Origin: a candidate division FCPU426 bacterium
GTDB taxonomy: Bacteria; Oederibacteriota; Muellerivitia; Muellerivitales; Muellerivitaceae
Assembly: GCA_027452205.1 (NCBI GenBank)
Contig: DAIDGV010000021.1
Location: 1 to 64,000, forward strand
Length of the DNA: 64,000 nucleotides
Direction: 5' to 3'
The notes under the pieces were generated by a model. It saw only the letters and a program-made list of their open reading frames with translations. It did no database searches and was not told where the DNA came from. Shown here in pieces: positions 1,672 to 39,103 of the stretch. Position 1 is the first letter of the stretch; each line of letters starts with the position of its first letter. A program made the position numbers and the translations under genes.

Positions 1672-4596
1672 GTGAAGAGCTTTGTCATATCGGACCTTTT
1701 TGCCAAAAGGTTAAAACGATTTTACTGTCACGCGCTCATATTGATTTTAGCGATGAGCGCGGTACCTTCCTCTGTGTCCGCTGCCTTTACCGCCATTTAC
1801 GCTTCGGACGGCAATGACGGCTATACCTTCACCGGTTGTTTCACGGTGGCGAACTTAAAAGCCTCTTGTTGGAACGGCATCATCATGTTCGCCGCGTCGG
1901 TGCAGCCCAACGGCGATATCACCGCCGGGGGCAATACGCTGGTATCGAACGGCGTTTATATGGGGGACGCGAACTGGGGATCGAACGTGACGAACCTCAA
2001 GACCCCGCCGACCTCGGTGACCCGTTATGAACTTTGCGTGGGCGGCTGGGGAGACACTAGTTACGCGAACATCCAGAACATCATCAACAGCCAGGGCGCT
2101 TACGGCATCCTCTACACCAATTTCCGCGCGCTGAAGAATGCCTGCCCGGGTTTGGACGCCATCAACGACGATGATGAGGGCAATTACGACCTGAACTCCT
2201 CCATCCAATTCGGGCAGATGCTTTACAACAGCTGCGGCCTGAAATTCACCCAGGTGCCTTATCAGAACCAAAGCTTTTGGGTGTCGTTGAAGAACAGTTT
2301 GGGCGCGGCTTGCGATCTGGTCTATCTGCAATGCTACCAGGGCGGGGCGGGGAACAATCCGGCCCAGTGGGATTCGGCTTATGGTGGCGGGTTCCATGTG
2401 ATCCCCGGTGAAGAAACGAACTACGCCAGCCAATCGCAATTCGCCACCTGGGCCTCGACGGGATCGACCGGCGGGTTCTTTTGGCCGGACTGGTATTACT
2501 GCCCGGGCACTAACTGGCCGACACTGATCGCCCAGGGCATCGGCACGAGCTGTTCGCTGCCCGCGGTGAACCCTTACTTGCAGGTGAACGGCGGCGCTTG
2601 GCAGAACACCAACAACGCGACGGTGCCTTTTGGGGCGTTGGTGAATTTAGGCCCGCAGGATTCGGGTGAGGCCTGGAGCTGGACGGGACCGGGAGGATAT
2701 ACCTCCACTTCCCGCGAGATCGACAGCATTCCCCTGAGTGTGGGCGTGAATACCTTCACCGTGACCAACACCACCCAATGCGTTTGCAACCAAAGTAATA
2801 CTTTCACCATCACCATGCAGCCGCCGGCGGCCTGCGCCAACGGCAACGCCACCTTCGGCAATACCGCGGCGGGCACGGGATGCTGTAATCAGGGTGGGCA
2901 GTTGGACTGCTGTTCTTACAACCTGACCCAACCCATGACGGTCACCTATATGCAGATCTATATGGGATCGGGCACGAATGGCAACGGGGTGCTGGGCATT
3001 TACGCCGATAACGGCGGGTCGCCGGGGACCTTGCTGACCAAGAGTAACGCCATGCAGTTGACCTCGGGCTGGAACACCTTCGCGGTGAACCCGGTCTATT
3101 TGGCGCCGGGCAACTATTGGCTGTCCGCCAGCCTGGATAGCAAGACCAACAATTTTTGGTATTCCAACTCGGGCGGCGGGGGACTGTTGTTCAAGACCTA
3201 CGCTTATAACGGCAACCTGCCCTCGACGCCGGGCGGCGGCATGACGGGCTATGGTTGGCTGATGAGCATCAACGCCAATGGTTGTGTGGTACTGCCCACC
3301 GCCACACCGACCTGGACGGTGCCCGCCTGCACGACCAGCAGCACCACTTTGGGTAATGCGTCCTCAGCGAACGCGGGGTCCGCCGGGGCGGGTGGCATCA
3401 TTGGCGGCACCACTTACACCTTGTCCCAGCCGATGACGGTGACGTCGCTTTCGTTCTATTTCTCCGGCGGCACCAACGGCAGCGGGGTGGTGGGTCTTTA
3501 TTCGGACTCGGGTGGAAGGCCCGGGACACTCTTGGTGCAGAGCAACGCGCAAAGCCTGAACTCGGGGGGCTGGAATAATTTTGTGGTGACGCCGACGGCG
3601 ATCCAGCCGGGCAATTATTGGATCTACGGAAGCTTTTCGGGCACGGCGAACTGGCAATATTCCAATGGTTGCTGCACCGGGGGTTATCTCTTTGGAAGCT
3701 ATACCTATAACGGAAGCCTGCCGAACACGATCACCACGACCCTGACCGGTTATGGCTGGACCATGTGCGCTTACGCCAGCGGCTGCCTGCAGCCCACCGC
3801 GACGATGACCAACACGCCGCGCATGACATCGACCAGTACGGTGACGAACAGTCCAACGCAGACATCGACGGTGACCAATACCCCGACCGTGACGGATAGC
3901 CCGACGCAGACCAACACGGCCACGAATAGCGCGACCCATACCGTGACGAACACGGCCACCAATACGGCCACGCATACATCGACCAACACCGCGACTTCAA
4001 CGGCGACGAATAGTTCGACCTCGACGGCCACGAATACCGCGACCAAAACGAATAGTCAGACCGCCACCAATACCCGAACCGCTTCCTCCACCCCGACGGA
4101 AACTGATACGGCCACCAGCAGCGCGACCCACACGGCCTCAAATACGGCCACGGTGACCCATACCCAAACCCAAACTTCGACCGCTTCCAGCAGCCCGACC
4201 GAAACCCATAGCGCGACGATGACCTCCACGCCGACCGCAACCTCCACTTTGACCAGCACCAACACGCCCAAGGCCACCAGTACCCATACGGCGACCTGTA
4301 CCGTGACGATCACCAACACGCCCTCGGTCACGAAGCCGGTCATTTATCCCAATCCGGTGGCGGGTCCGACGGTGACCCTGCAATTGCCCGGAAATAATTT
4401 GACCAACGTGAGCGTGGAAATTTTCACGCTCTCTTTCCGCGAGATCAAAACGGTGACAATGCCCCAAGTGGTTGGAAGCAGTTTGGTGATCGATTTGACG
4501 GACCGTTTCAGCAAGCAATTGGCGAACGGTCTTTATTACTTCCGGATCACGGTGGGGAACAAAAAATGGGTCGAAAAGTTACTGGTGCTGCGTTGA
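1672..4596 (+). CDS. Large secreted GH18-like barrel protein with two Cys-bounded modules and C-terminal sorting domain
   Basis: 974 aa from a GTG start. A signal peptide (about 1-37, hydrophobic core ALILILAMSAVP) precedes a barrel-like region at about 40-298. There the motif AINDDDE (residues 163-169) resembles the DxxDxDxE active-site strand of GH18, but the match is weak, so the enzyme activity is tentative. An Ig-like segment (about 298-385) follows, then two copies of a roughly 150-aa Cys-bounded beta-rich module (about 388-543 and 552-707). A Thr/Ser/Asn linker (about 708-886) leads to a type IX-like sorting domain (888-974) with IYPNP, LANGLYYFRI and KLLVLR. The protein is probably exported to the cell surface. 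The conserved hairpin leader lies directly upstream. Confidence 0.75.
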   Translation: MKSFVISDLFAKRLKRFYCHALILILAMSAVPSSVSAAFTAIYASDGNDGYTFTGCFTVANLKASCWNGIIMFAASVQPNGDITAGGNTLVSNGVYMGDANWGSNVTNLKTPPTSVTRYELCVGGWGDTSYANIQNIINSQGAYGILYTNFRALKNACPGLDAINDDDEGNYDLNSSIQFGQMLYNSCGLKFTQVPYQNQSFWVSLKNSLGAACDLVYLQCYQGGAGNNPAQWDSAYGGGFHVIPGEETNYASQSQFATWASTGSTGGFFWPDWYYCPGTNWPTLIAQGIGTSCSLPAVNPYLQVNGGAWQNTNNATVPFGALVNLGPQDSGEAWSWTGPGGYTSTSREIDSIPLSVGVNTFTVTNTTQCVCNQSNTFTITMQPPAACANGNATFGNTAAGTGCCNQGGQLDCCSYNLTQPMTVTYMQIYMGSGTNGNGVLGIYADNGGSPGTLLTKSNAMQLTSGWNTFAVNPVYLAPGNYWLSASLDSKTNNFWYSNSGGGGLLFKTYAYNGNLPSTPGGGMTGYGWLMSINANGCVVLPTATPTWTVPACTTSSTTLGNASSANAGSAGAGGIIGGTTYTLSQPMTVTSLSFYFSGGTNGSGVVGLYSDSGGRPGTLLVQSNAQSLNSGGWNNFVVTPTAIQPGNYWIYGSFSGTANWQYSNGCCTGGYLFGSYTYNGSLPNTITTTLTGYGWTMCAYASGCLQPTATMTNTPRMTSTSTVTNSPTQTSTVTNTPTVTDSPTQTNTATNSATHTVTNTATNTATHTSTNTATSTATNSSTSTATNTATKTNSQTATNTRTASSTPTETDTATSSATHTASNTATVTHTQTQTSTASSSPTETHSATMTSTPTATSTLTSTNTPKATSTHTATCTVTITNTPSVTKPVIYPNPVAGPTVTLQLPGNNLTNVSVEIFTLSFREIKTVTMPQVVGSSLVIDLTDRFSKQLANGLYYFRITVGNKKWVEKLLVLR

Positions 4597-4793: not shown

Positions 4794-7700
4794 GTGGAAA
4801 TTACTACGTTTCAAAACTCTTTGAACAAGGGTTTGAAATTTTCAGTTCGGTGGAACCTCATATCGTTTCTTTTGGAACGATCGATTCTTCTTTTTTTACC
4901 CCTCTTTCTCATAACGATGCCCGCTTGGGCGGACGGGGCCTTTGGACCGCAGCACGGGGTTGCCATCGGACCGGTCGTCGTCAACTTCTCTGACCTGGCG
5001 AACAAACAAGCCAAGGGTCTTTTGCCCGTTTCCAAACCGATCCAAATGTACGAACAGGACGAGGACCAGGGCCCGGCCCTGCCGGCCACGAATCCTTTGG
5101 CCAAGATATCTCACTTGATCCTGCCGAACATCCCCGCCGGGGCCTTGGTGCCTTCGCCTTCCAGCGCGATCGATTTTGAGGGACAAACCAACGGGGGATG
5201 GAACCCGCCGGATACCGAAGGGGCGGTCGGCCCCAATCACGTCATCTCGATGGTCAATAGCTGGATCAACATCAAGGACAAGTCGGGCAACTTGCTGAAA
5301 AGCGTGGATATGCAAAGTTTCTGGTCGGGCGGCGGCATCGCCACTTACGGCAGCGCTTTCGACCCCCGGGCCCAATATGACCCGATCAGCCAGCGCTTCA
5401 TCATCCTTTGCGGCAGCGGTATCGGCGACCTGAACCAATCGCAGGTCCTGTTGGCGGTGAGCCAAACCTCGGACCCGACGGGTAGCTGGAACCTTTATAG
5501 TTTCTTCGCGGACAACAACACCCCGACCCAGCATTGGCTGGACTATCCCACGATGGGTTTCAACAGCAAGTGGATCCTGATCCACGGCGACCTGTTCGGG
5601 CAGAACGGCGGCTCGACCGAGGATGGGATGTGGGCCTTCAATAAAGCCAACCTTTACGCCGGGGGCGCGGCCCAATACACCTTCATGGTCGCCGGGAGCT
5701 GGATGTGCATGCCCGCGGAAACCTATGACGCGGCCGAGCCCGATGAATATGTGGTCTGGAACGACAGTAACAGCAGTGTGGCGCTCTGGAAACTGACCGG
5801 CGCCATCGGCAGTGAGAGCTTGGTGCAGGTGGCCAGCGTTGGTTCGCCCCTGGGATGGACGGGTAGCGACGCGCCCGCGCCCCAGTTGGGGTCTTCGGTC
5901 ACGATCGGCGGGGGCGTGGGCGTCTTCATGAGCTGTATCTACCGCAACAGCTCGATCTGGGCCTGCGAGAGCGTGGCGCCGAACAGCGGGCCGACCCGAT
6001 CCTGCGCCCAATTCTTCCAGATGGATACCTCAGGTAATTTGCAGCAGTTCGGCCGGGTGGACGATCCCACGGGCACCAACTTCTATAACTTCGCCTCGAT
6101 GGGCGTCAACACCAACAACGATATCCTGGTGGGGTTCACCGTCTATTCATCCAGCATCTATCCCAGCTGCGCTTACGCTTACCACTCGGCCTCGGACCCG
6201 GCGGGTAGTTTCCGCGATCCTTATATCTATAAAGCGGGCGGCGGGGACGGCCAGAGCCGGTGGGGGGACTACAGCCACACCGAAGTGGACCCGACCAACA
6301 ACCTGGACTTTTGGACGGTGCAGGAATACCAGAACGGCGGCGGATGGGACACCTGGTGGGCCAAGGTGGCCGCTTTGTCCATCGCCACCGCGACCCCGAC
6401 GCCGAGCTTTACACCCACGACCGTGCCGCCCGTTTGCGCCTCTTGGGTGGTCAACGGCAACGCGAGCCAGGGCGCAGGGGTAACCTTGACCATAGCGGCC
6501 AATGGGGAAACCGGAACGGCTTGGAACACGAGCACCCTGGACTTGACGAAGGACTTTAACCTGGCCTTCAAAGCTTACTTTGGGGCGCCGGGCGGGGCGG
6601 ACGGCATCGACTTCGTCCTGCAGAACGACCCGCGCGCCACGGCGGCGATCGGCGGAGGGGGCGGGGGCAAGGGTTATTCGGGCGGGGTTTCGATCACGCC
6701 CTCGGTGGCTTTCGACCTGGAAACCTATGGCAGCAACGGCACCCTGCAAATGCTGGAGAACGGCAACACGACCAATACCTGCGCTTATGTGGCGGGCACT
6801 TGCCCCTATGTGTTCTCCTCGAACATCGCCAATTCCGCCGAGCATAGCTATCAAGTGACCTGGAGCGCCTCGGCTAAACAACTGATGCTGATCGTCGATG
6901 GCAACGTGGTGATGACCTATAACCGGGACCTAGTGGCGTCGGTCTTTGGCGGCAATAGCAACGTCTTTTACGGATTTACCGGGGCCACCGGCGGTTCGAA
7001 CAACTTGCAATATGTCTATCAGGTGGGCTGCGTGGTCCCGACGCCGACCGCGACCATTCCCGCTTGCACGACCAGCTCGACCACCCTGGGCAATACCTCC
7101 TCGGCTAACGCGGGTTCCGCGGGCGCCGGGGGCTATATTGGCGGCACCACTTACACCTTGTCCCAGGCGATGACGGTGACCTCGCTGTCGCTTTATTTCT
7201 CCTCGGGCACCAACGGGAACGGGGTGGTGGGTCTTTATTCGGATTCGTCGGGTAATCCCAACTCGCTGTTGGTGAAGAGCAATCCGCAAGTCCTGAACGC
7301 GGACGCCTGGAACAGCTTTGTAGTGACGCCGACGGTGATCCCGGCGGGCAAATATTGGATCTATGGCAGTTTCACGGGTACGGTGAATTGGCAGTATTCC
7401 AGCGGCTGCTGCGCGGGCGGCTATCTGTGGGGCGCCTATAGCTATAACGGCAACTTGCCCGCGACGATGGTCGGCGGGCTGACCGGATATGGCTGGACCA
7501 TGTGCGCTTACGCCAGCGGCTGTCTACAGCCCACGGCGACCATGACCGCGACCGGGACAAGCACGGCTACTTCCACCCCGGCCTATACGGCGACCGCCAC
7601 CTCGACCGCGACAGGTACGAATAGCGCGACCTCGACGGCCACTTCGACCGCGACCCAAACCGCGACCAATAGCGCCACCAAAACGAATTCGGCCACCCAA

Positions 7701-8333
7701 ACTTCCACTTCGACCCGGACGAATACCGCCACATCCACGGCCACTTCCAGCGCGACCTCGACGGCGACCCAGACGGCGACCAACAGCGCCACCTCGACCC
7801 GGACGAACACCGTGACTTCCACGGCTACGCCGACCTCGACCTTTACCCTGACCGAGACCTCGACCAGCAGTTCCACGGCGACCGCGACGGTGACGCCGAC
7901 CCGAACCTCCACCTCGACGGCGACGGTCACCCACACCCAAACCTGCACCTCGACCCCGACCAAGACCAATACCATGACCGCCACGGTGAGCTGCACCAAT
8001 ACACCCACGGTGACAAGGACCTATACGGTGACCGCGACCCAAACCCCGACGGACACGCCCCTGGTCACCCAGCCGGTGATCTATCCCAATCCGGCGACGG
8101 GAAATCAGGTGGCCCTGGCGCTGCCCAAACTGAACGCAGCATCGGTCACGGTGGAGATATTCACCCTGTCCTTCCGCGAGGTGCAAACCTATCACTTCGC
8201 GCAAGTGGCCGGAAGTACGGTGATCCTGCCCCTTTACGACAAGGGCGGCGTGGCTCTCGCTAATGGGCTTTATTACCTGCGGGTCACGGTGGATGGTCAT
8301 AAGTGGATCGTGAAGTTGCTGGTCCTCAAATGA
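4794..8333 (+). CDS. Secreted propeller-like protein with L-type lectin domain and C-terminal sorting domain
   Basis: 1179 aa, GTG start; the overlapping ATG two bases earlier hits a stop after ten codons. A signal peptide ends near PAWA-DG (about residue 46). Residues about 100-535 resemble an uncharacterised secreted propeller family marked by PPDTEGAVGPNH and FDPRAQYDPISQRFI. Residues about 544-747 are a bacterial L-type (legume-like) lectin with GADGIDFVLQNDPRATAAIG, likely binding mannose-type glycans. Then follow one copy of the Cys-bounded module (756-912), a Thr/Ser linker (913-1090) and a sorting domain (1092-1179). The next gene starts inside the stop codon (ATGA overlap), so the two are probably co-translated. 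No catalytic motif is evident. Confidence 0.78.
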   Translation: MEITTFQNSLNKGLKFSVRWNLISFLLERSILLFLPLFLITMPAWADGAFGPQHGVAIGPVVVNFSDLANKQAKGLLPVSKPIQMYEQDEDQGPALPATNPLAKISHLILPNIPAGALVPSPSSAIDFEGQTNGGWNPPDTEGAVGPNHVISMVNSWINIKDKSGNLLKSVDMQSFWSGGGIATYGSAFDPRAQYDPISQRFIILCGSGIGDLNQSQVLLAVSQTSDPTGSWNLYSFFADNNTPTQHWLDYPTMGFNSKWILIHGDLFGQNGGSTEDGMWAFNKANLYAGGAAQYTFMVAGSWMCMPAETYDAAEPDEYVVWNDSNSSVALWKLTGAIGSESLVQVASVGSPLGWTGSDAPAPQLGSSVTIGGGVGVFMSCIYRNSSIWACESVAPNSGPTRSCAQFFQMDTSGNLQQFGRVDDPTGTNFYNFASMGVNTNNDILVGFTVYSSSIYPSCAYAYHSASDPAGSFRDPYIYKAGGGDGQSRWGDYSHTEVDPTNNLDFWTVQEYQNGGGWDTWWAKVAALSIATATPTPSFTPTTVPPVCASWVVNGNASQGAGVTLTIAANGETGTAWNTSTLDLTKDFNLAFKAYFGAPGGADGIDFVLQNDPRATAAIGGGGGGKGYSGGVSITPSVAFDLETYGSNGTLQMLENGNTTNTCAYVAGTCPYVFSSNIANSAEHSYQVTWSASAKQLMLIVDGNVVMTYNRDLVASVFGGNSNVFYGFTGATGGSNNLQYVYQVGCVVPTPTATIPACTTSSTTLGNTSSANAGSAGAGGYIGGTTYTLSQAMTVTSLSLYFSSGTNGNGVVGLYSDSSGNPNSLLVKSNPQVLNADAWNSFVVTPTVIPAGKYWIYGSFTGTVNWQYSSGCCAGGYLWGAYSYNGNLPATMVGGLTGYGWTMCAYASGCLQPTATMTATGTSTATSTPAYTATATSTATGTNSATSTATSTATQTATNSATKTNSATQTSTSTRTNTATSTATSSATSTATQTATNSATSTRTNTVTSTATPTSTFTLTETSTSSSTATATVTPTRTSTSTATVTHTQTCTSTPTKTNTMTATVSCTNTPTVTRTYTVTATQTPTDTPLVTQPVIYPNPATGNQVALALPKLNAASVTVEIFTLSFREVQTYHFAQVAGSTVILPLYDKGGVALANGLYYLRVTVDGHKWIVKLLVLK

Positions 8334-11300
8334 GGCGGGTTGTTATCGTCTCGTGCGTGCTTTTTTTGAGCGGACTGACTCATAACGTTTTCGCGGACTT
8401 CAACACGAATGACGATACTGCCGCGGCGGTCCTGCAGACCTATTACAACAGCAGCGGTCTATGGGACGGCACTTTCGCGGGTTGGGGCGACGCGGAAGCT
8501 TTAGAGACGGTTGAGAACACCATTCTTCGCACCAATGGGCAGTCCTCTTACCTTTCCGACATCGCTACGACCTACAACGACAATTACAGCGGGGGCTTTA
8601 TCGATAATTACTATGACGACGAGGGTTGGTGGTGCAATGCCTGGATCCGGGCTTATGACCTGACGGGCAACACGACCTATCTGAACATGGCCAAGTCCAT
8701 CTATAGCGACATCGTGGGCGGATGGGATGCTTCGGTCTGTAACGGCGGGCTTTGGTGGCAGAAGCCGAACAATTATAAAAGTTCCATCTCGAACGAGCTT
8801 TTCCTGCTGGAGTCCATCCGCCTTCACCAGCGCACGCCCGGGGACAGCTATTACCTGAATTGGGCCAACGCCGAATGGACCTGGTTCAGCGGGACCGGCG
8901 TGATCAATGGGAACAACCTGATCAACGACGGGGTCGATTCCACGACCTGCGGGAACAACGGCGGGGGGATCTACACCTACAACCAGGGGGTCATCCTGGC
9001 GGGCCTAACGGACCTCTATAAAGAGACCCTGAACACCGCTTATTTAACGAAGGCCGAATCGATCGCGAACGCGGTGTTGAATTCCGCCAATGGACTGGTG
9101 AACACCAGTGAGATCGTTACCCAGGGCGGGCCCGGGGACGGATCGGAGTTCAACGGCATCTTCGCCCGTTATCTGTTCTATCTCTATGACACCGACCACA
9201 ACCCGGCCTATTACAACTTCCTCGTGGCCAACGCTAATTCCATCTGGGCCAATGACCGGGATGGGTCCAATAACTTGGGTTACCTTTGGACCGGGCCGGT
9301 GAACCTGTCCATGCCGGGCAGTCACGTTTCGTCCATGGACCCGGGGGCGGTCATTGCCAAACCCTGGACCACGACGATGGTCTATGCCCGGGGCGCGGGC
9401 GACCCGGAACTGAACCACTCGACGGGTTACGCGACGGGCACCCTGGCTTGGGCTTGCGACAACACTTCCTCCCAGACCTTCATGCAATGGGGCCCCTATG
9501 TGTCGTACCTATCAGCGGGAAGCCACACGGTGCATTTCCGGCTGGCCTCGTCGGTGACCAATTGCTCGCCGGTGAGCCTGTTGACCCTGCAGATCACCAG
9601 TAACAGCGGTACGGTCACCCAGGGCAGTATGAACGTGCCTTGGGCCGCCTTCGTGGAAGCGAACAAACCGCAGGATTTCGCCGTGAGTTATACCGACAAC
9701 ACCGCCAATGATCCTTTGGAGTTCCGTGTGATATGGAACGCGGTCCCGGGAACGCCCAAGGTGACCCTATCGGATATCACGGTGGATGGGAACTACAACT
9801 GGACCGCCGCCAACCTGACCCACGACATTGGCCGCCTGGACGGGGTGAACGACTGGGAGGCGGATTCGGTGAAGGATTCGGCCTCGGGTTATATGATCCG
9901 GGGGCCGGGTACCGCGGAACTTGGCAACGCTAATTGCCAGGCGGTCTTCGAGATGAAGGTGGATAACTTCAATTGGGATAACAACCAGGTGGCAACCTTG
10001 TCGGTGGTTGATGTGGATACCGGCACCACAGTGGCCAGCCAGAACGTGACGAGGAACCAGTTCAACACCATCTTGTTCCAGGACTTCACCCTGAATTTCA
10101 CCGCCACGCTGGGCCATCACTATGACTACCGGGTCTATTATGACGTCTTCAACAATTCGCCCCGGCTGACGGTGCGGGGCATCTATACCAGCATCCTTTC
10201 GGCCAATCCGGCGGCCACCCCGACCGCGATCGCCTGCGCCAGCGGCGGGACCTTTGGCAATACGGTGTCGGGCACCGGCGGTTATAACCTGGGCGGCCAG
10301 ATCGATTGCGCGAAATACAATTTGGCCCAGGCCATGACGGTGACCTCCATCAGCATCTATATGGGAGCGGGTACTTCGGGCAATGGAGTCTTGGGGATCT
10401 ATTCAGATAGCGGCGGGCCGGCGAATCTTTTGGTGCAAAGTTCGGCCCAGCCCTTGTTCGCGGGATGGAATACCGTGGGAGTGACCCCGACGGTGCTGAC
10501 GGCGGGCAACTACTGGCTATCGGGAAGTTTTACTGGCAACGCGGTCTTTGACTATTCGAATAGCAATGGCGGGACGATGTCCTGGACCAATTACACCTAT
10601 AGCGGCACCTTGCCCTGCACGGTGGGAGGCTTGACCGGTTATGGCTGGTTGATGAGTATTTACGCCAGCGGTTGTTTACAGCCGACCCCAACGATGACCC
10701 AGACCCATACCTCGACCGATACGGCGACCAACAGCCCTACCTGCACCCCGACGGCGAGCAGTACCGCCACTTTGACCGACACGGCCACCCTGGGCGAGAC
10801 CGCCACGAATAGCGCGACGAATACGGTCACGAACAGCCCTTCCTCGACGCCCAGCGAGACGGAGACCAGTTCGGCGACCTCGACGAATACGATCACTCCC
10901 ATGCCCACTTCGACCAGCACCCTTACCCCGGTCTCGAGCTATACGAGCACCTCGACCCAAACGGTTACTTTTACAGGGACGAGTACAGCTACTCGAACAG
11001 CGACGAACAGCGCCACTTCGACGGCGACAAACAGCGCTACTTCGACCGCGACGAATACCGCCACCAAAACGAGTAGCCAGACCGCGACGAGCACCTGCAC
11101 CGCTTCGTCGACGCCGACCGCGAGTTTTACTTCGACCAGCACGGCGACAAATAGAGCCACCAACACTGCGACGGTGACTCGTACGCAAACTTCGACATGG
11201 ACCGCTTCTTCGAGTCCGACTCAGACCGGCAGTTCCACCGCCACTTCGACACTGACAGCCACGGCGACCTCGACAGGCACCAGCACGCCCAAGGCCACCA

Positions 11301-11631: not shown

Positions 11632-11726
11632 ATCAGCCACGGATGGGATGAACGGCAAAGCAAAAACGATTTAGCCACAGATGAACACGGATGGGGAACA
11701 AAATCGTCAGGCAAAAGAACGGCCTA
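11632..11726 (+). repeat. Dispersed CCACAGATG repeat copy
   Basis: The sequence CAGCCACGGATGGGATGAACGG, then TTTAGCCACAGATGAACACGG, then GGGGAACAAAATCGTCAGGC, matches the repeat units at 961-1284 in the same order. It lies immediately after the GH76 gene stop. The following 160 bp to the next gene contain a small hairpin (CCTTAGGCTAAGG, about 11793-11805) and nothing else recognisable. Confidence 0.75.
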
Positions 11727-15964: not shown

Positions 15965-16111
15965 ATCCAGTCAGAATTCAAACCCCAAGAAATACCTTTG
16001 TAAATCAACGGTTGCTTGAGGTCCAATCGACAACCTCATCTTGAGAATAACTCGGTTAGGTTGGTAGCATTCTATGAGTTAGTCCTATTTCAACGGGGAG
16101 CAAAAGAGATC

Positions 16112-27095: not shown

Positions 27096-30000
27096 TTGAA
27101 GAAGGGGACCCGCAAGTCATTTTTGCCACGGACGGCCTTAAAATCGTTTTTGGTCCTGCTGTTCGGCGCTTGGACCGCCGCGTCCTACGCGGCCCCGACG
27201 ATCGGTACGGTCACGGCTAATGCCGGATCGGTCCCTCAATATAGTAAGTTCGAACTGACCTTTCCTATCACGACCTGGGCCACCAATCTTTTCGACCCGA
27301 ACCAGATCAGCGTCAGCGCCACCTTTACCGGGCCATCAGGCCAGACCTATGTCATCAACGGTTTTGCTTATCAAAATTACACCCGTTCGGGCAGCGTGAA
27401 TGGGCAGACCCTGTCCGCTTCCGGGCCGGTGGTCTGGAAGGTCCGCTTCGCCCCGCCTGTGACGGGTATTTGGTCCTACAGCTTGAGCGCGACGGACACG
27501 GGCGGCACCTCCACCCAGCCGGGCGGTACTTTTCAAGCGACGGCCGGCTCGAACCACGGGTTCGTGTCGGTCTCTTCTTTTGACGCCCGTTATTTCACCT
27601 TTAGCGACGGCACCGCCTTTTTTCCGGTGGGTGAGAACATGACTTGGGACAATGACGCCAATGGCAAGAGCGACAATACCTATTGTTACGATAATTACCT
27701 GTCCAAGTTGGCCGCCCAGGGCGGCAACTATGTGCGCATCTGGATGGCCAATTATGGTTTCGGTATCGAGAACAATACTTTAGGTAGTTATGACATGGAC
27801 AAGGCCTGGGCCTTGGACGAGGTCTTCAATACCGCCGAAAGCGATAACCTCTACATCCAACTTTGCCTGAACGCGGCGGTCCAATTCGACCCGAACAATA
27901 ATTTCTCGTCCAACCCCTATAACTCCGCCAATGGTGGGCCTTTGAGCAGCGCAGATGCGGTTTGGGCCAACACGACGGCCCAACAGTATATGAGCCAACG
28001 CTGGCGCTACATTACCGCTCGCTGGGGTTATTCGACCTCTTTGATGGATTATGAATTGTTCAACGAAGTAGACGATTCCTATAACTACTCAGCGCACATG
28101 ACCAATGACATCCCCAATTGGCACGCGAACAACAAGAACATCCTTAACAGCCTTAACCCCCAAAAGCACATGGTCGCTACCAGCTTTTCAACCTGGAACC
28201 TGGCCAATCAAAACTTGACCTGGGCAAACATGGATTTCACCCAGACCCACCAATATGACAACAGCGATGAAGCGGTGATGATGCAGAACTCCGTGCCTTA
28301 TTACGAGAACAGCGCTAACGGAAAGTATGCGCCCTTCTTCGCCGGGGAAATGGGCACGACCTGGAATTGGACGGGCCCGTCCGAACAGACCGAAGACCCG
28401 AATGGTCTGGCGATCCATAACGTGAACTGGGGTTCTTTGATGACCAATGCCGCCGGGGGCGGGTTCATTTGGTGGTGGGACAGCTATGTGGATCCCTATA
28501 ACCACTATCCCCAATGGAAGGGTATCTCGGCTTTTGTAGCGGGGGAGGACCTGGATAAAAGGGGTTATTCGGCCCAGTCGGTCACGCCGGGCAATGCCAA
28601 TGGGCAGCCCCTGCGCTGCCTCTATTTAAGGGGCAGTCAAAAGGTCCTGGGATGGGTCCAAAACACCAATAACGAGTGGTATGCCCAATATAACAACGGG
28701 GCCAGCGTGGGCAGTTCGCCCGCCCCCACGGTGCAATTGACGGGTTTGAGCCCCAATGGGAATTGGCAATTGCAATGGTGGAACACCAGCACCGGCGCGA
28801 TCTATCAAACCACCACCGCCATGGTCTCGGGTGGGACAGCCAATCTGGCGGTGCCGGCCATGAGCGGCACCAACCCGGATTGGGCCTTTAAATTGATTTC
28901 GGCCCCGGTGACCGCTTCCACTTGGAGGGTGGTAGCTGGGGGAAACCAATATACGGATTCACAAGGAAACGTTTGGAGCGCGGATACCCAATATATCGGC
29001 GGTTCTACCGCTGCCTCGACCAACGCCATTGCGGGCGCCTTGCCGGGCTCGGGGGACCAAGCTCTTTATCAGACCGAGCGTTGGGGTAGTCCCTTCCAAT
29101 ATGTCTTCAATGTGCCCGCTGGGTCCTATCAGGTCACTTTGAAGTTCGCCGAGACCAAGTGGACCGCCGCGGGCCAGCGGGTCTTCAATGTTTCCGTTAA
29201 CGGCAATACGGTCCTGGCCAATTTCGACATATATGCTGCCGCGGGCGGCGCGAACAAAGGGGTTGATGAGATTTTCAACTCCATCAGCGGTAACGGGGGC
29301 GCGGTCACTATTACCCTTGGCCCGGCCAGCGTGGATAATGCCAAGGTTGACGCCATCCAGGTCATCCCTCAACCAGCCCTCTTGACGCCGACGAACACGC
29401 CCACGGCCACCGCGACTTGGACCCTGACCAGCATACCGACCAAAACCTTTACCCTGACGCCGACCTTCACGCCGGTGGTCAGCAACAACAAGCCACCTTA
29501 TCCAGTGGTTTGCTATGTCAACCATACCAACAAGGCCAGCGCCACGAGCCTGGCCGGGTCCAGCGGCCCGGCGATCAATTGGACGACCGATGTGCCCTGG
29601 AAGGATATAACGGTCGTTGTCGACGCTTTTTTAAATCCCAATTCCAACGATACTTTTAGTAATGCCGGGGCACAAGGTGCCGCGTTGATCAATCCCGCGC
29701 ACTCGAACGGGGTTCGCTGTTGTGTGGCTTTAACGGCCGGGTCTTTGGCGACCCTTTGTTTACCCGCCAACCAGGCCGCTTTCGCTTCGGCAGTGACCGC
29801 GATGATGATGCAGAGTAACTATGATGGCGTGGAAGTGGACTGGGAAGTGACGGGCGCGGCGACGCAGGCCAACGCCACGAATATGATGGTCGCTTTGTAT
29901 AACGCCATCAAAGCCCTGCCGAATTCCAGTGTTGATGGAAAGCCCCGAACGCTTTCCTTCACGACCAATCCGGCTTATTCCAATATCTATAATATGACCA

Positions 30001-32015
30001 CCTTGGGGAATTACACGGACTGGTGTTTCTATATGGGCTATGACTGGTACGACAATCCCGCCAGTTACGCCAACGGCCCCCTGAACGGCGTCAATCCCAG
30101 TATCGCCGGGAACATCCAAAGTTTGACCAATGGGAGCCAATGGAGCTACCCGATCAGCAAGATGATCCTAGGTTGTCCCCTTTATACGAATGACTACAAC
30201 GCCGGTACTTATTATGACGTGCTTTCCATCCTGCATCTGGGGACCCCCGGCGCTTATAACACCTCCTATGCGGAGCAGGCCTATACGGCCCCCGACGGCA
30301 ATACGGTCTATGTAGATACGGCCCAAAGCTATTGCGACAAGATCAATTGGGCCTTGGGCTCGGGTTTGAAGGGAATCGGTCTGTGGGATATGGCACAAGC
30401 CCTGCCTTATACGGACAGCCTGGTCGGGCCGATCTGGAACACCATCGCCGGGCAAGCGGCCTGCCTGAATTTGGGTCCCACGGCGACGCCTACCAAGACT
30501 GCCACGCCCATCGTGGTCGCTACTTGGCGGATCAACGCCGGCGGTCCACAATATACGGATAGCCAGGGCAACGTCTGGTCGGCGGATACCCAGTACGCAG
30601 GCGGCACTACCGCCTCCACGACCAATGCGGTCTCGGGAGCTTTGCCGGGCGCCGCAGACCAGACGCTCTATCAGACCGAGCGTTACGGTGATCCTTTCAG
30701 CTATAGCTTCAACGTGCCGGCCGGGGCTTACCAGATCACCCTGAAGTTCGCGGAGACCTATTGGACCGCAGCGGGTCAGCGAGTCTTCAATGTTTCGGTC
30801 AACGGTACGACGGTCCTGACGAATTTTGATATCTTCAAGACCGCCGGGGCCATGAACAAGGCGGTGGATGAGGTGTTCAATAACATCGCTCCGTCGGGCG
30901 GGACCATTACCATTACCCTGGGTTCGGCTAGCGTGGATAACGCCAAGGTGGACGCCATCCAGATCATCCCGCAAGCTGCCACGCCGACCAACACGCCGAC
31001 GATGACGGCTTCCAAGACCCTGACGGCCACCAGCACGCCGACGTCCACGATGACGATGACCTCGACGGCGACGACGGCATCGACCAGCACCAATACCTCG
31101 ACGATGACGGCCACGGGCACGAATACGGTGGTGAACACGTCCACCTCAACGAGCAGTCCGACAGTGACCGTGACGGGTTCCTTCACTCCAGTGATGACTG
31201 CGACCCCGACCATGACCAACACCGCTACATCGACGGCGATGAACACGACAACCCGGACCAGCACGAATAGTCCGGTCAATACGTCAACACCGACGATGAC
31301 CCATACCTCTACCTCGACCAGAACCAATACCCCGATCTACACCGCCACTCCTACTTTCAGCTTTACGCCGACTAAGACCTGGACAACGGTATTCACGGTG
31401 ACGAGCACCGCCACCAACACCACGACGCCAACTTTGACGTCGACCTTCACTTTTACGGCGACCAAGGTGCCCTTTACCTCGACCCCCACCAAGTCTTTGA
31501 CCTCAACACCGAGCTGGACCGGTACGCCGACCCGAACGGCGACGCCTGCCAGCGCTTGCGCGGGAATTCCCGAATGGAACGGTAATTTCATCGCTTATTC
31601 CATCGGACAGAAAGTGCAGTACAACGGCGAGGAGTATCAGTGCATCCAGGCGCATAGCTCCGAATCGACCTGGGAACCGAATATCGTTCCGGCCTTGTGG
31701 AAGGACTTGGGTCCTTGCGGAAGTTCAGCACCGGCCGCCGTAGTTGCTTCGGCTCCGGTCGCTTATCCCAATCCGGCGACGGGGGATAGCACGACGATCG
31801 CCTTGCCCATGGCGACGGCCAGCCAAGTGAGCGTGCAAATCTATACGGTGGCCATGCGGTTGGTCCGGACGATCAATGTTGGGCAGGTCAACGGCGAGAA
31901 CGTGACCTTGCGGCTGGTGGATAAAGGCGGGGTCCAATTGGCGAATGGGATCTATTACTTCCGTGTCCAAGCCAATGGTCAGGGCTGGACGGTGAAAGTG
32001 CTCATTCTTAGGTAA
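27096..32015 (+). CDS. Giant secreted two-enzyme protein: DUF5060/GH-A glycosidase plus GH18, two malectins, CBM5/12, sorting domain
   Basis: 1639 aa from a TTG with AAGGGGGA just upstream. Signal peptide about 1-33. A DUF5060-like beta domain (34-150) precedes a GH-A clan barrel (150-500) with YELFNEVDD (acid/base Glu324) and FFAGEMG (nucleophile Glu418). Then come malectin 1 (607-757) and a second catalytic barrel of GH18 type (about 802-1128). In its motif DGVEVDWE (910-917) the second Asp is Glu, while Asp915 and Glu917 remain. Malectin 2 (1139-1293), a Thr/Ser linker (1297-1485), CBM5/12 (1487-1540) and a sorting domain (1553-1639) complete it. The two malectins are close paralogues, suggesting internal duplication. 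The first barrel's substrate is unknown. The gene is divergent from an AraC regulator. Confidence 0.85.
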   Translation: MKKGTRKSFLPRTALKSFLVLLFGAWTAASYAAPTIGTVTANAGSVPQYSKFELTFPITTWATNLFDPNQISVSATFTGPSGQTYVINGFAYQNYTRSGSVNGQTLSASGPVVWKVRFAPPVTGIWSYSLSATDTGGTSTQPGGTFQATAGSNHGFVSVSSFDARYFTFSDGTAFFPVGENMTWDNDANGKSDNTYCYDNYLSKLAAQGGNYVRIWMANYGFGIENNTLGSYDMDKAWALDEVFNTAESDNLYIQLCLNAAVQFDPNNNFSSNPYNSANGGPLSSADAVWANTTAQQYMSQRWRYITARWGYSTSLMDYELFNEVDDSYNYSAHMTNDIPNWHANNKNILNSLNPQKHMVATSFSTWNLANQNLTWANMDFTQTHQYDNSDEAVMMQNSVPYYENSANGKYAPFFAGEMGTTWNWTGPSEQTEDPNGLAIHNVNWGSLMTNAAGGGFIWWWDSYVDPYNHYPQWKGISAFVAGEDLDKRGYSAQSVTPGNANGQPLRCLYLRGSQKVLGWVQNTNNEWYAQYNNGASVGSSPAPTVQLTGLSPNGNWQLQWWNTSTGAIYQTTTAMVSGGTANLAVPAMSGTNPDWAFKLISAPVTASTWRVVAGGNQYTDSQGNVWSADTQYIGGSTAASTNAIAGALPGSGDQALYQTERWGSPFQYVFNVPAGSYQVTLKFAETKWTAAGQRVFNVSVNGNTVLANFDIYAAAGGANKGVDEIFNSISGNGGAVTITLGPASVDNAKVDAIQVIPQPALLTPTNTPTATATWTLTSIPTKTFTLTPTFTPVVSNNKPPYPVVCYVNHTNKASATSLAGSSGPAINWTTDVPWKDITVVVDAFLNPNSNDTFSNAGAQGAALINPAHSNGVRCCVALTAGSLATLCLPANQAAFASAVTAMMMQSNYDGVEVDWEVTGAATQANATNMMVALYNAIKALPNSSVDGKPRTLSFTTNPAYSNIYNMTTLGNYTDWCFYMGYDWYDNPASYANGPLNGVNPSIAGNIQSLTNGSQWSYPISKMILGCPLYTNDYNAGTYYDVLSILHLGTPGAYNTSYAEQAYTAPDGNTVYVDTAQSYCDKINWALGSGLKGIGLWDMAQALPYTDSLVGPIWNTIAGQAACLNLGPTATPTKTATPIVVATWRINAGGPQYTDSQGNVWSADTQYAGGTTASTTNAVSGALPGAADQTLYQTERYGDPFSYSFNVPAGAYQITLKFAETYWTAAGQRVFNVSVNGTTVLTNFDIFKTAGAMNKAVDEVFNNIAPSGGTITITLGSASVDNAKVDAIQIIPQAATPTNTPTMTASKTLTATSTPTSTMTMTSTATTASTSTNTSTMTATGTNTVVNTSTSTSSPTVTVTGSFTPVMTATPTMTNTATSTAMNTTTRTSTNSPVNTSTPTMTHTSTSTRTNTPIYTATPTFSFTPTKTWTTVFTVTSTATNTTTPTLTSTFTFTATKVPFTSTPTKSLTSTPSWTGTPTRTATPASACAGIPEWNGNFIAYSIGQKVQYNGEEYQCIQAHSSESTWEPNIVPALWKDLGPCGSSAPAAVVASAPVAYPNPATGDSTTIALPMATASQVSVQIYTVAMRLVRTINVGQVNGENVTLRLVDKGGVQLANGIYYFRVQANGQGWTVKVLILR

Positions 32016-32149: not shown

Positions 32150-33604
32150 ATGAAAGAACCAATGATCATCCAAGGCGGTATGGGAGTTGCGGTCTCGAAC
32201 TGGCGGCTGGCCAGGGCGGTTTCCAAGGAGGGGCAGTTGGGGGTTGTTTCAGGAACGGCCCTGGACAATGTGATGGCCCGCCGGCTGCAAATGGGGGACC
32301 TGGACGGATCCACCCGCCGGGCAATGGAAAAGTTCCCGGACCAAGAGATCGTCCGCCAGCTATTGGCCCGTTACTACATTCCGGGTGGCAAGGCGCCCGA
32401 AGCGCCTTTTAAACCCGTTACCCTTTATTCGCTACATCCTCCCAAAGAACTGGTGGAATTGACCATGGTCGGCAATTTTGTCGAGGTTTATCTGGCCAAA
32501 GAAGGGCATCCGGGCAAGGTGGGGGTCAACTTGCTGGAAAAGATACAGCTTCCGACCTTGCCGTCGCTCTACGGCGCCATGTTGGCGGGTGTCGATTATG
32601 TGTTGATGGGAGCGGGCATTCCCCGGACCATTCCCGGCATTTTAGACCAGTTGGCTACCCACCAAGCCGTCTCCATGAAGGTGCAAGTGCAAGGCGCGGC
32701 GATGGAGGACGATTTCCAAGTGACTTTTGATCCGGCGGACTATCTCCAAGACCGGACCAAACCCCTGAATCGGCCCAAGTTCATCGCCATCGTCGCATCC
32801 GAGGTGTTGGCACTGACCCTGGCGAAAAAGTCCTCGGGACAAGTGGATGGGTTCGTCATTGAGGGACCTACCGCGGGCGGGCATAACGCCCCGCCGCGTG
32901 GAGCGATGACCTTGGATGAAAAAGGCGAACCGATCTATGGTCCCAAGGACGAGGTGGATAAGAAGGCTTTCGTGAAGTTGGGACGGCCCTTTTGGCTGGC
33001 GGGTTCCTACGCGGACCCCAAAAAGGTAAAAGAAGCGTTGGAACAGGGCGCTTCCGGGGTGCAGGTGGGAACGGTTTTCGCCTATTGCGAGGAATCGGGG
33101 CTGACCGACGAACTCAAACAAAAGGTTTTCGAGGAGATAAGGCAGGGCCGGGAAGAGGTCTTTACGGACCCGAAGGCCTCGCCCACGGGTTTTCCATTCA
33201 AGATCGTGAAGGTGGCGGGAAGCGTTTCGGAAGAGTCGGAATATCTGGCCCGGCCCCGGCTTTGTGACCTGGGTTATTTGCGGGTGCTTTATAAAAGAAA
33301 GGACGGCACGGTTGGATACCGTTGTCCGGGGGAACCGAAAGAGATATTTCTTCAAAAAGAGGGGGATCCGGCGGAAATGCAGGGAAGAAAATGCATCTGC
33401 AATGGGCTGATGGCCAGTATCGGCTTCGGCCAGCACCAGCAGAACGGTTATGTGGAAAGACCTTTGGTCACATCGGGGAACGATCTGTATAAAGTCATCG
33501 AGTTCTTGAAAGGGGACAAGCTCTCCTATACCGCGGCGGATGTTATCCGTTATCTTTTGGGGATCATCTCGCTCGAAGCACCGGTGCCGGCGGTCGGGGG
33601 ATAA
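32150..33604 (+). CDS. Nitronate monooxygenase / 2-nitropropane dioxygenase family flavoprotein
   Basis: 484 aa, ATG preceded by GAGGAAATAA. It starts PMIIQGGMGVAVSNWRLARAVS, the standard opening of this FMN-dependent TIM-barrel family. GPTAGGHNAPPRG (about 245-257) is the conserved His/Gly region, and GASGVQVGTVFAYCEES (about 310-330) the phosphate-binding end. Family members oxidise alkyl nitronates or act as enoyl-ACP reductase-like or quinone reductases, so the substrate cannot be read from sequence. It is longer than the usual 320-380 aa because of a C-terminal region with several Cys (KCICNGLMAS), seen in one branch of the family. It lies 20 bp upstream of the YwiC-like gene and is likely cotranscribed. 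Confidence 0.8.
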   Translation: MKEPMIIQGGMGVAVSNWRLARAVSKEGQLGVVSGTALDNVMARRLQMGDLDGSTRRAMEKFPDQEIVRQLLARYYIPGGKAPEAPFKPVTLYSLHPPKELVELTMVGNFVEVYLAKEGHPGKVGVNLLEKIQLPTLPSLYGAMLAGVDYVLMGAGIPRTIPGILDQLATHQAVSMKVQVQGAAMEDDFQVTFDPADYLQDRTKPLNRPKFIAIVASEVLALTLAKKSSGQVDGFVIEGPTAGGHNAPPRGAMTLDEKGEPIYGPKDEVDKKAFVKLGRPFWLAGSYADPKKVKEALEQGASGVQVGTVFAYCEESGLTDELKQKVFEEIRQGREEVFTDPKASPTGFPFKIVKVAGSVSEESEYLARPRLCDLGYLRVLYKRKDGTVGYRCPGEPKEIFLQKEGDPAEMQGRKCICNGLMASIGFGQHQQNGYVERPLVTSGNDLYKVIEFLKGDKLSYTAADVIRYLLGIISLEAPVPAVGG

Positions 33605-33624
33605 GTTGTCCGAGGGGTTCAAGC

Positions 33625-34416
33625 ATGCTTCCTAAAGAACATGGTGCGTGGAACGCATTGGGGCTGTCCTTTTTAGCGGGATGGGCGGCTTTAGGAATTT
33701 GGTCCTTCCCGGGGGCGATGATCTGCCTTTTCTGGGGCGCCGGATTCTTGCTTCGTGGACCCATTTCCATTATTCGCCAATACCAAAAGGCGGATCCGCC
33801 CCGGGCTCGCCGGGCCAGGGTCTATTTAGGCTTCTTGTTATTGGTCTTGGGGTCTTCGGGCCCGCTGTTCATGATCACGGCCCCGCAAGCGGATCGTTAT
33901 TGGGTTCTTGGATTCGGTTTTCCGGTCGGTATCCTGGTCTTGATCCTTTCCGTTCTGAGAAGGAACTTACGGTCCATCCTTCCGGAAGTTTTTGGTTTTG
34001 CCGGCCTATGCGCTTTGGCGCCGGCGATCTATCTTTCGGCCCCCCAGACCGATCTTTCCAAAGCCGGGTGGATCTATGGTTCGGTCGCCGGTTATTTTGT
34101 CCTGGCGCTCTTCTATGTGAAGGTCCGGCAAAAATGGCTGGCCCTTTTCCGGCAAGGACATGAACTTTCCCCGAAAGAACGTCTTGCCCAAGGATGGCGG
34201 TTGGTGGCGCCTTACGCGTTGTGGGCCGTAGTGATCCATCATTCTTTTCCTGTGAGTTGGGTTTTGTTATCCGTTCCGGCTTTCGCGGTGACCCGGGTTT
34301 TGGGAGGCCTATTGTGGGGCCAAATGTCCCTGCCTCTCATGAAATTGGGTGTCCGGGAAATGACCCTTTCTTTCTTTTACCTATTCCTGGTCCTCTGGAC
34401 ACTGAAGTCCATATAA
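33625..34416 (+). CDS. YwiC-like integral membrane protein
   Basis: 263 aa, preceded by GAGGGG with 8-nt spacing. The N-terminus MLPKEHGAWNALGLSFLAGW carries the PKEHGAW signature of the YwiC family. About seven to eight hydrophobic helices follow. YwiC of Bacillus is encoded near nitrate-respiration genes, but its biochemical role is not established. Here it follows a flavoprotein gene by 20 bp, probably in one operon. No catalytic motif can be named beyond the conserved N-terminal EHG. Confidence 0.8.
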   Translation: MLPKEHGAWNALGLSFLAGWAALGIWSFPGAMICLFWGAGFLLRGPISIIRQYQKADPPRARRARVYLGFLLLVLGSSGPLFMITAPQADRYWVLGFGFPVGILVLILSVLRRNLRSILPEVFGFAGLCALAPAIYLSAPQTDLSKAGWIYGSVAGYFVLALFYVKVRQKWLALFRQGHELSPKERLAQGWRLVAPYALWAVVIHHSFPVSWVLLSVPAFAVTRVLGGLLWGQMSLPLMKLGVREMTLSFFYLFLVLWTLKSI

Positions 34417-34499
34417 AAGAAGATGCTTGTCCCTTGGATCGGGAGTGGGTGGCCCGGTAAAATCTTTCCAGCTTTCATCTCGTGATCAAGGAATGGGAT

Positions 34500-35060
34500 A
34501 TGGCGAACAACGACCTAAAGAATTGGGGCCCCTTGGCGGCCCTCGTCGGCAAGTGGGAAGGCATCAAAGGGGATGACACCGCGCCCTCAGATGACCGTGG
34601 CACGGAGAAAAACAAATACCGTGAAGTGGCGGTCTACGAAGCGATCGGCCCGGCGACCAACCACGAGCAACAACTTTACGGTCTGCGTTACAACATGATG
34701 GCCTGGCGCATCGGCGATGCCGATCCTTTTCATGAAGAGTTGGGTTATATGATGTGGGACGCGAAGGACGAACAGGTCATTCGCTGTGTCATGATCCCCC
34801 GAGGTGTGGCCATCGTATCGGGTGGCACGGTGAAGGCCGACGCCAAGAGGTTCCATTTATCAGCCAAGCTGGGTTCGGCCACCTATGGCATATCCTCAAA
34901 TATTTTCCTGGACCGGGAATTCAAGACCGTCGGTTACGAAGTGGATTACACGATCAACAGTGATGGGACCTTTACCTATGACCAGGATGTGCAGATCCAG
35001 ATCAAGGGGAAACCGGACCTTTTCCACCATAAGGACAGCAATACCCTTTATAAGATCTGA
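34500..35060 (+). CDS. Heme-binding beta-barrel (THAP4/nitrobindin-like, FABP-type) protein
   Basis: 186 aa from the ATG at 34500, chosen because AAGGA lies 8 nt upstream; a GTG 18 nt earlier is possible. The features are LAALVGKWEG near the start, YREVAVYEAIGPATNHEQ, LRYNMMAWR, FHEELGYMMWD and MIPRGVAIVSGG. This pattern is shared by small cytosolic beta-barrels annotated as THAP4-like heme-binding or FABP-family proteins. The family forms a ten-stranded barrel that can hold ferric heme and act on peroxynitrite or nitric oxide. No signal peptide. It is 83 bp after the YwiC-like gene and may belong to the same unit. Confidence 0.75.
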   Translation: MANNDLKNWGPLAALVGKWEGIKGDDTAPSDDRGTEKNKYREVAVYEAIGPATNHEQQLYGLRYNMMAWRIGDADPFHEELGYMMWDAKDEQVIRCVMIPRGVAIVSGGTVKADAKRFHLSAKLGSATYGISSNIFLDREFKTVGYEVDYTINSDGTFTYDQDVQIQIKGKPDLFHHKDSNTLYKI

Positions 35061-35209: not shown

Positions 35210-38200
35210 TTGAGCGATTCATTCTTTTATCCCTCATTACGATCGGTCCGCGGATATCTTGTCCGCGTTTCTTTCCTGCTTTTTTTCTTGAGCGGGCCAG
35301 TGGTATCCGCAGCGTCCCTCCATTTTTTCGAACATGCGAATTTGCCCAAGGACGTGCTGACCGCGACCCGGATGGAAAGGCTCTCGGCCAGTCGTCATCT
35401 TCATCTGACCATTGGTCTCCCCACGCGGGACCAGGCCAATATGCAAGCCCTGGTGGAGGCGATGTATGAAAAGGGGAATCCCCAATACCACCATTATTTG
35501 ACCCCGGATCAGTTCACGTCTTCCTTTGGACCGAGCGAAGCGGATTACCAAAAACTCACCGAATTCTTCAAAGGTAAAGGATTAACCATCGAGGGAACCT
35601 CGCCGGGCCGGGTGACCTTGAACGTGACCGGCCGGGTGGACCAGATCGAAAGAACCTTTCATGTCCATCTGCACAACTACCGCCGGGGCGATGGCAGTCA
35701 GTTCTTCGCGCCGGACGTGGAACCGTCGGTCGAGACCGAGGTGAACATCGCCCGGGTCGGCGGATTGGATAATGCCCACCCGGCGATCCCATTGGTACAC
35801 AACACCGGGGGCGGAGCCCTTTCGGACCTGGCGCCCAATGGAACGGGGACCTCGGGCGCGGAGTGGGGCAATGATATCCGGACCGCTTATATCCCCGGGG
35901 TAGCCCTGACCGGCGCGGGACAGACCATCGCCATCGTTTCCCAAGAGGCTTATCTTCCCAGCGACGTTTCGACCTACTGCACGGATACGGGCATCGCTTT
36001 GGCCAGCACGCAGAATGTGACCTGCGGATCCTATTCAAATTTACAGAACGACACTCAAGAAATGACCCTCGACATGGAAATGGCGAACACCATGGCCCCG
36101 GGCGCTTTCATCACCGCCTATATCGGCGATGATTTCGACGCCATCCTCAGCCAGATCGCTAGTGACGGCACCGCCTATCAGGTCACCTCCTCTTATGGCT
36201 TTACGGCGGATACAGTGACGATCTCTTTGTTGACCCAGTTGGCCCTTCAAGGGCAATCCTATTTGAATGCGGCGGGTGATGGCGGTTCCTATGTGAATGG
36301 CGCGCAAGATACCAACAATTCCACGGTCAAAGCAGCGTCCCTCACGGGCACGGTCATGGACCAGTCCCTGGTGACGGTGGTAGGCGGGACCGCGATGACA
36401 TTGACCGGGACCGGCACCGCCTATGGCGGCGAAGTGGTCTGGAACGATACGACCGCGGTGGAGACCACGCATATGACGACCGGGTCCGGTGGCGGACGTA
36501 GCGCGGACACCAGTATCCCTTCCTATCAATCCGTAGTCTCGATGGCGACCAATAATGGCTCGACGACCAAACGGAATATCCCTGATGTGGCCTGCCTAGC
36601 CTATGGCATCCAAATCGTTTGGAATGGTGCGATCACCCCTTTCATAGAAGGGACCAGTGCCGCGGCACCTTTATGGGCAGGTTTTATCGCCCTAGTGAAC
36701 GAACAGGCCGTGAATGCCTCCAAACCGCCGGTCGGGTTCCTGAATCCCAGTCTTTATGCCATTGGAGAGAGCGGGAATTATAGTTCTGATTTCCATGACA
36801 TCACCGTTGGTAATAACGATATGACGGGCTCGGCCCCGACCCAGTATTCGGCTGTGGCGGGTTATGACCTGGCCACGGGCTGGGGCACGATGAAGGGGCA
36901 GGCGCTCATCAATGACCTGATCACCAATTATGTGGCCCCGACGGCCACCATTACCCCCTCGCCGACCAACACCCCGGGCGGCTGCGGCAGTAACCCGGGC
37001 TCCAGTTGGACCCAATTGCATAACGTCATCGTCTCGGGCCAGGGCGGGGGAGCTTTCGATATCCACGACGGCAATGGTCCGGAGCCGGTCGTGATCGGAG
37101 GTCTCGACGCCGGCGTGAGCGTTCTTTACGCTTATCCAGGAGGAGGCGCCAGTTTGGGAGCGACGCAGATCACGGTCGCGCCGGTAACAATGAGGACCAA
37201 TTATGATGTGGTCAATTTCAACGGTTGGACCTGGGTCGTTGGCGGATTGAGCGGTTCTACCTACATGAACGATGTTTGGCGGACCTGGGACGGCGTGGAT
37301 TACGCTAAGGTGACCGGATCAGCGGCTTTCGCGGGTCGGGACAACTTTGGCCTAGTGGTCTACAACAACAAGCTTTGGGTCATCGGGGGGCAAACGGCCA
37401 CCGGTACGGTGGTCAATGATGTTTGGTCTTCGCCGGATGGCATTACTTGGACCCGGGCGACATCGAGCGCGGCCTTTTCGGCCCGGCAGCTGCTGAGCGC
37501 GGTGGTCTTCAACGGTCAAATGTGGGTGATGGGCGGGAAGAATTCCGGCGGCACGATGCTCAATGACGTTTACAACTCGACCGACGGGGTAAATTGGACG
37601 GCGGTGTCAGGAAGCGCCTTTACGGCCCGGGAAGCGGCCCTGGTCACGGTCTGCGGAAATGACCTTTGGCTCATCGGCGGCTCCAGCAACGGAACCTCTG
37701 GTCTGACGGATGTTTGGGTATCGGAAGATGGCGGCAACTGGACGAAGGAAACCAACGCGGCGGGATTCGGCGCATCGGTGACCGAATACGCAGCCTGCGC
37801 CTTCTCTTATAGCGGCAATGTTTGGGTCATGGGCTCCAATGGCACTTACACATCCAGCTGTTGCGCTTTACCTACTTACACGCCCACCCAAACCTCGACG
37901 CGTACCTCGACCTCGACCCAGACAGCCACCAACACGGCCACCAAGACCGCCAGCCAGACATCGACCGGCACGGCTACCAATACTGCTACCAATAGCACTA
38001 CTGCCACGGCGACCAGCACGGGGACCAATACCGGGACAAACACGTCGACCCAAACCTCGACCAGTACGGCGACCAATACAGAAACGGTCACGGAAACCCA
38101 AACGAACACCTCGACCAATAGCTCGACCAACACCCCAACTTATACCGGCACTAATACGGCGACCAGTACTGTCACTAATACCCAGACCGTTACTGAAAGT

Positions 38201-39103: not shown

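Follow-up and report, generated by a model that had tools for sequence, protein, structure and literature searches.

The window analysed here, a stretch of 64,000 nucleotides, is the start of contig C21 in a 2.89-Mb genome that is 99% complete in 28 contigs. Between positions 1672 and 39103, eight large proteins (P1 to P8) are encoded on the same strand, the forward one, and each carries a Thr-rich linker and a type IX sorting domain. P1 (1672-4596) comprises a signal region, a 284-aa domain that we call P1N (1780-2631), a pair of beta-sandwich modules that we call R150 (2827-3297 and 3313-3801, together 2827-3801), the linker and the sorting domain. P2 (4794-8333) contains an L-type lectin domain (6441-7019; PF18483, E 1.9e-24), an R150 module (7053-7542), a linker and a sorting domain (8055-8330). 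In P3 (8330-11617), a GH76 domain (8423-9292) is followed by a beta region of about 300 aa (9305-10219), an R150 module (10235-10693), the linker and the sorting domain (11339-11614), whereas P4 (12296-15964) combines a VPS10/BNR propeller with a second L-type lectin domain (14621-15205; E 5e-31), a linker and a sorting domain. A small protein on the forward strand (16016-16801) has a weak PagL-like (outer-membrane barrel) match that falls below the cut-off (E 0.003). P5 (17516-21703) contains GH16 (17612-18370; E 5e-15), CBM6 (18515-18874; E 3e-19), malectin (18932-19351; E 5e-22), R150 (19421-19876) and CBM5/12 (21281-21394; E 2e-14) domains before its sorting domain. P6 (21870-24647) consists of a GH18 chitinase domain (21963-22940; E 3e-55), a malectin, a CBM5/12 (24228-24338) and a sorting domain; P7 (27096-32015) has a DUF5060 glycosidase-like domain (27195-28920), a malectin, a GH18 (29505-30398; E 3e-17), a second malectin (30522-30959), a CBM5/12 (31590-31703) and a sorting domain. 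P8 (35210-39103) joins an S53 kumamolisin-type peptidase (35315-36960) to Kelch repeats, a Thr-rich linker of about 330 aa and a sorting domain.

Two genes within the island lie on the reverse strand, one for an acyltransferase family 3 protein (24644-25750; PF01757, E 4e-21) and one for an AraC-family protein with a cupin sensor domain (25865-26749; PF12833, E 2e-21; PF02311, E 1e-15), the latter being a candidate regulator of the island. Between P7 and P8, the Pfam scan found that the island is interrupted by three unrelated, non-surface genes on the forward strand (NMO-like, YwiC-like and THAP4-like; 32150-35060). The left border is uncertain because the window begins at a contig end, just left of the island. 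The GC3 values of the island genes (0.67-0.82), considered as a sign of recent arrival and not accepted as such, overlap in range with those of the other genes looked at (0.51-0.72). An earlier note on this DNA had named the GH76, GH16-CBM6 and GH18-CBM5/12 enzymes, the two lectin proteins and the S53 protease, and all of these were recovered; it had not described the DUF5060 domain and two malectins of P7, the propeller, the AraC regulator or P1N.

The architecture that the same note had ascribed to all eight proteins also held. Thr-rich linkers (37-44% T) occur in every one, and the eight C-termini can be aligned with 20 invariant columns. Seven pass the cut-off of TIGR04183, the NCBIfam type A sorting domain; the C-terminus of P8 falls below it, though it aligns with the other seven. 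The genome has 18 sorting-domain places, eight of them within these 37 kb, where about 0.2 would be expected if they were spread evenly over 2.89 Mb, and this concentration is not due to chance. The Pfam SprA_N model gave no SprA match in the genome, and a reading of this blank as the lack of a T9SS was overturned when a profile built on a pair of roughly 2000-aa proteins from the same family found SprA there; the same SprA/Sov ORF also scores above the NCBIfam cut-off (203.3 vs 200 bits). The predicted T9SS thus has its SprA/Sov translocon gene, in a test that covered SprA alone.

The catalytic motifs of the GH16 domain (EIDMME) and of the two GH18 domains (DGVDIDWE and DGVEVDWE) are intact. 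The solved proteins nearest to the P5 GH16, which has the EIDxxE motif, are beta-1,3-glucanases (E 4e-57); kappa-carrageenase (E 2e-7), lichenase and porphyranase are far behind. An NCBIfam match to kappa-carrageenase (32 bits, cut-off 350) was ruled out by these closer relatives. The P5 GH16 is, to judge from its nearest solved relatives, a GH16_3-like beta-1,3-glucanase, and P6 and P7, with DxxDxDxE-type motifs and chitinase matches, are putative chitinases. GH16_3 enzymes cut fungal beta-1,3-glucan and laminarin alike. Neither GH16 nor GH76 grouped with algal or plant enzymes, the outcome that the earlier note had named as contrary to its proposal, but a GH16_3 placement alone cannot separate fungal glucan from laminarin.

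The pairing of modules is better evidence than GH16 alone. A chitin-binding CBM5/12 is carried by the GH16 protein, both here and in its homologue in G018, a genome of another family of the phylum. Fusions of GH16 and GH18 occur elsewhere in the same genome and in G019, from another family, and in three same-family genomes (G004, G005 and G001) GH16(-malectin) and GH18 genes lie about 5-10 kb apart. In a sister island in the genome G037, a single protein unites GH16 and CBM6 with an L-type lectin and a GH64 beta-1,3-glucanase (GH64 E 3e-77). The gene set as a whole also resembles a fungal cell-wall utilisation locus (FCWUL) of Chitinophaga pinensis that was tested on mushroom wall (PMC10449523). 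For these reasons chitin and beta-1,3-glucan are well supported as one joint target, and their presence within one matrix points to fungi first, with diatoms as a rival source. No beta-1,6-glucanase or alpha-1,3-glucanase was recognised in the island.

Further proteins of this kind were seen in the same genome. On contig C23, a 1640-aa protein (74673-79592, +) consists of GH16, two malectins, GH18, another malectin, CBM5/12 and a sorting domain, and forms a second chitin-glucan locus; near its gene lies that of a protein with a sorting domain and a weak similarity to the TIM barrels of GH72/GH2 (C23:63420-66392, -). Contig C26 encodes a sorting-domain protein (L122:7552-10311, -) with a CBM5/12 and an N-terminal part that has no Pfam match and reads like a beta-helix.

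The GH76 domain of P3 is clear (E 7.5e-38), with a plausible ATG at 8330 (the longest ORF runs from 8303), and its catalytic DD pair is kept (DDEGW). Its best solved match is the fungal CtGH76 (147 bits), the next protein reaching 89 and ShGH76 57. In a tree of 83 sequences, it groups with proteins of Ktedonobacter and Verrucomicrobia (SH-aLRT 99) in a clade that also contains CtGH76, the fine placing of which is unsure because of long branches, and that leaves out ShGH76 and Lin0763. We assign it by this tree to the clade named 'Fungi/Bacteria-mixed' (F/B-mixed) in the CtGH76 paper (PMC12295086), and not to the ShGH76-type mannanases that have been characterised. CtGH76 was found to bind glycans of the GPI-core and alpha-1,6-mannobiose kinds but did not hydrolyse alpha-1,6-mannotriose to -hexaose (PMC12295086). 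Because the studied member of the clade gave no such hydrolysis, the alpha-1,6-mannan leg of the fungal-wall reading is weak. Unlike CtGH76, P3 is T9SS-tagged and multidomain and has in addition the beta region also seen in GH76 proteins of Ktedonobacter and Verrucomicrobia; the substrate is putative in both. The alpha-mannan loci of Salegentibacter and Bacteroides (ShGH76, BT GH76; PMC9213526) likewise combine the GH76 family with GH92, but here the GH76 lies outside their group, the genome's single GH92 is on another contig, and no mannan PUL was seen. GH92 also occurs in most of the family. The P3 GH76 seems, from its relatives in the tree, to have been acquired from a different source. Eight Ktedonobacter and Verrucomicrobia loci (L013-L015, L018, L019, L025, L026 and L028) carry GH76 together with the same beta region of about 300 aa, an architecture that crosses phyla, and in an acidobacterial locus (L055:9644-12325) a GH76 gene is directly followed by a GH16 gene.

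Among the other modules, P1N has no Pfam or PDB match, and Pfam recognised no GH in P1. Its stretch DAINDDDE (DxxNxDxE) resembles the GH18 catalytic motif, a likeness in the motif only: negative results from a Pfam scan, from a profile search of the PDB and from hhalign with 21 GH18s of the phylum led us to drop the reading of P1N as a GH18. A single-sequence AlphaFold model of P1N reached a pLDDT of 31. For R150, considered as a possible CBM, the model reached 72, with weak jelly-roll and CBM6-like matches; the module is common across the phylum, and copies above 200 bits occur only in this genome, G018 and G037. The DUF5060 domain of P7 matches PDB 9gmj (E 2e-70), for which we found no paper, and the literature held nothing useful on the function of DUF5060. 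P8 has a Pro-kumamolisin match (E 4e-25), among solved proteins it is closest to kumamolisin (1t1e, E 2e-33), and its GTSAAAP motif is intact. A paralogue of P4 with 65% identity is encoded on contig C24.

How might this set of proteins have been assembled? In a sample of 384 genomes, no more than three had full-length P1N, namely ours (family f1), G018 (f10; 77% identity) and G037 (f11; 70%). All seven relatives within family f1 lack it. As a yardstick, the ThrRS of G037 is 41% identical to that of our genome, against 83-86% within the family; G018 (76% complete) had no ThrRS match, so the core-gene comparison rests on G037. In G018, P1N adjoins a GH16-CBM6-malectin-R150-CBM5/12 protein, and in the sister island of G037, P1N, R150, an S53-malectin-lectin protein and the GH16-CBM6-lectin-GH64 protein stand side by side. 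In the GH16 tree, the P5 domain is sister to that of G018 (100/99) and not to the same-family GH16s. Mis-binning was ruled out as the cause, since the GC of the island contigs of G018 and G037 fits their own bins and each has sorting domains of the type proper to its bin. Because the kinship of P1N and GH16 crosses families while the sorting domains fit each bin, the modules appear to travel between families and to be reshuffled, with the sorting tags staying local to the lineage. What is new here is this reshuffling of the same modules in two other families of the phylum, each lineage with its own tag.

The C. pinensis FCWUL encodes GH18-CBM5, GH18-CBM6 and GH16-CBM6 proteins, mostly T9SS-tagged, plus a peptidase, and has activity on mushroom wall (PMC10449523). 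The island resembles it in pairing GH18 with CBM5 and GH16 with CBM6, in its cross-targeted binding modules (the CBM5/12 on the island glucanase mirrors the CBM6 on a chitinase there), in its sorting domains and in its peptidase gene (PMC10449523). Unlike that locus, it belongs to a lineage with a divergent SprA and has a cassette-like spread, and the Pfam scan of the main ORFs from 1672 to 44191 found no SusC/SusD or other uptake gene among the proteins of the island, a result that is not absolute at a contig that ends just to the left. It further differs in having GH76, L-type lectins, malectins, the DUF5060 domain, P1N, R150 and long Thr-rich linkers. We class the island as a mobile, SusCD-less variant of the fungal cell-wall utilisation locus and not as a PUL of the FCWUL kind.

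We consider it fairly probable, from the domain content, that the island serves a Gram-negative, T9SS-bearing bacterium in depolymerising the fungal cell wall, that is, chitin and beta-1,3-glucan with the mannoprotein layer. Of the joint fungal-wall target proposed in the earlier note, the chitin and beta-1,3-glucan part is strengthened by the paired modules (CBM5/12 on a glucanase, GH16-GH18 fusions, GH64 in the sister island and the likeness to the FCWUL), and the alpha-1,6-mannan part is weakened by the F/B-mixed GH76. The proteins would cross the outer membrane through SprA, and their long linkers may hold them at the surface, or the proteins may be released. Binding to the wall would fall to the CBM6, malectin, CBM5/12 and lectin modules, and the enzymes would degrade it jointly: the S53 peptidase would open wall proteins, GH76, with the genome's GH92, would act on alpha-mannan or GPI-type glycans, GH16 would cut beta-1,3-glucan, and chitin would be left to the GH18s. 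The set may be turned on by the AraC protein. P1N, R150, GH16-CBM6, malectin, the L-type lectin and S53 would form a cassette that moves between families of the phylum, with each lineage attaching its own sorting domain to the cassette modules. We raise more tentatively the possibility, in our view a doubtful one, that an uncultured phylum has a mobile mycolytic cassette, in which catalytic and lectin modules, including P1N as a new glycosidase-like family, pass from one distant lineage to another and are re-tagged in each lineage with its own T9SS sorting domain for contact-dependent feeding on living fungi.

Chitin is also present in arthropods and diatoms. The bacterium might be a general scavenger of chitin and beta-1,3-glucan, whatever their origin (chitin and chrysolaminarin of diatoms, remains of arthropods or mixed detritus), with no special fungal link, and we regard this as possible but rather unlikely. 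GH16_3, GH18 and CBM5/12 share these substrates too, GH18 and GH16 are common in the searched genomes, most of which are of the same phylum (31/49 and 19/49), and GH76 was not found in G018 or G037, the carriers of the sister islands. Against such scavenging, no role of GH76 or GH92 on diatom or arthropod structural polymers is known, the relatives of the P3 GH76 in its clade are, judging from record titles, mostly soil, bog and permafrost bacteria, the sister island contains GH64, and algae are not known to contain alpha-1,6-mannan (PMC9213526).

The fungal-wall reading has two weaker competitors. The lectins, propellers and glycosidases might be directed not at fungal walls but at glycans of the cell's own envelope or biofilm, or serve in cell contact; digestion has no need of a pair of lectins, a VPS10/BNR propeller or Kelch repeats, and nearby genes encode a GDP-mannose dehydratase-like protein (46124-47215) and a Tad-type ATPase (53802-55841). 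This seems improbable, however, as the targets of GH18, CBM5/12 and GH16_3, namely chitin and beta-1,3-glucan, are normally absent from bacterial envelopes and the catalytic motifs are intact. We give still less credence to the idea that duplication gave one tag and linker to surface proteins that are otherwise unrelated and whose substrates have no common target. Shared sorting domains and linkers do recombine easily, and the GH76 is seemingly of different source, but the same modules occur together in two other families, and the pairing of GH16 and GH18 recurs, even within one polypeptide.

What is known of bacteria attacking fungal walls comes mostly from Bacteroidota PULs, actinobacteria and myxobacteria. 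A version tagged for the surface and lacking SusC/SusD, with spreading modules and local tags, would broaden the known degraders of fungal necromass or fungal prey. P1N, the DUF5060 domain and the F/B-mixed GH76 are new enzyme candidates, and the island is a clear test case for the evolution of T9SS cargo.

The surroundings of the island show some further features. About 15 kb downstream, a gene for a TadA/T2SSE-type ATPase fused to a ParA/MinD-like part (53802-55841) opens a region that extends to about 63000 and is possibly the start of a Tad-type pilus locus; Tad-like systems serve myxobacteria at prey contact (PMC10433427). At the contig end (212-871) lies a small gene pair whose translations, judged by eye, are antitoxin-like and PIN-domain-like. 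Just upstream of the island, at positions 899-1402 of the window, there are several near-tandem copies of a repeat around AGCCACAGATGAACACAGATG, and one further copy is located at position 11673, between the third and fourth island genes; by chance no copy would be expected.
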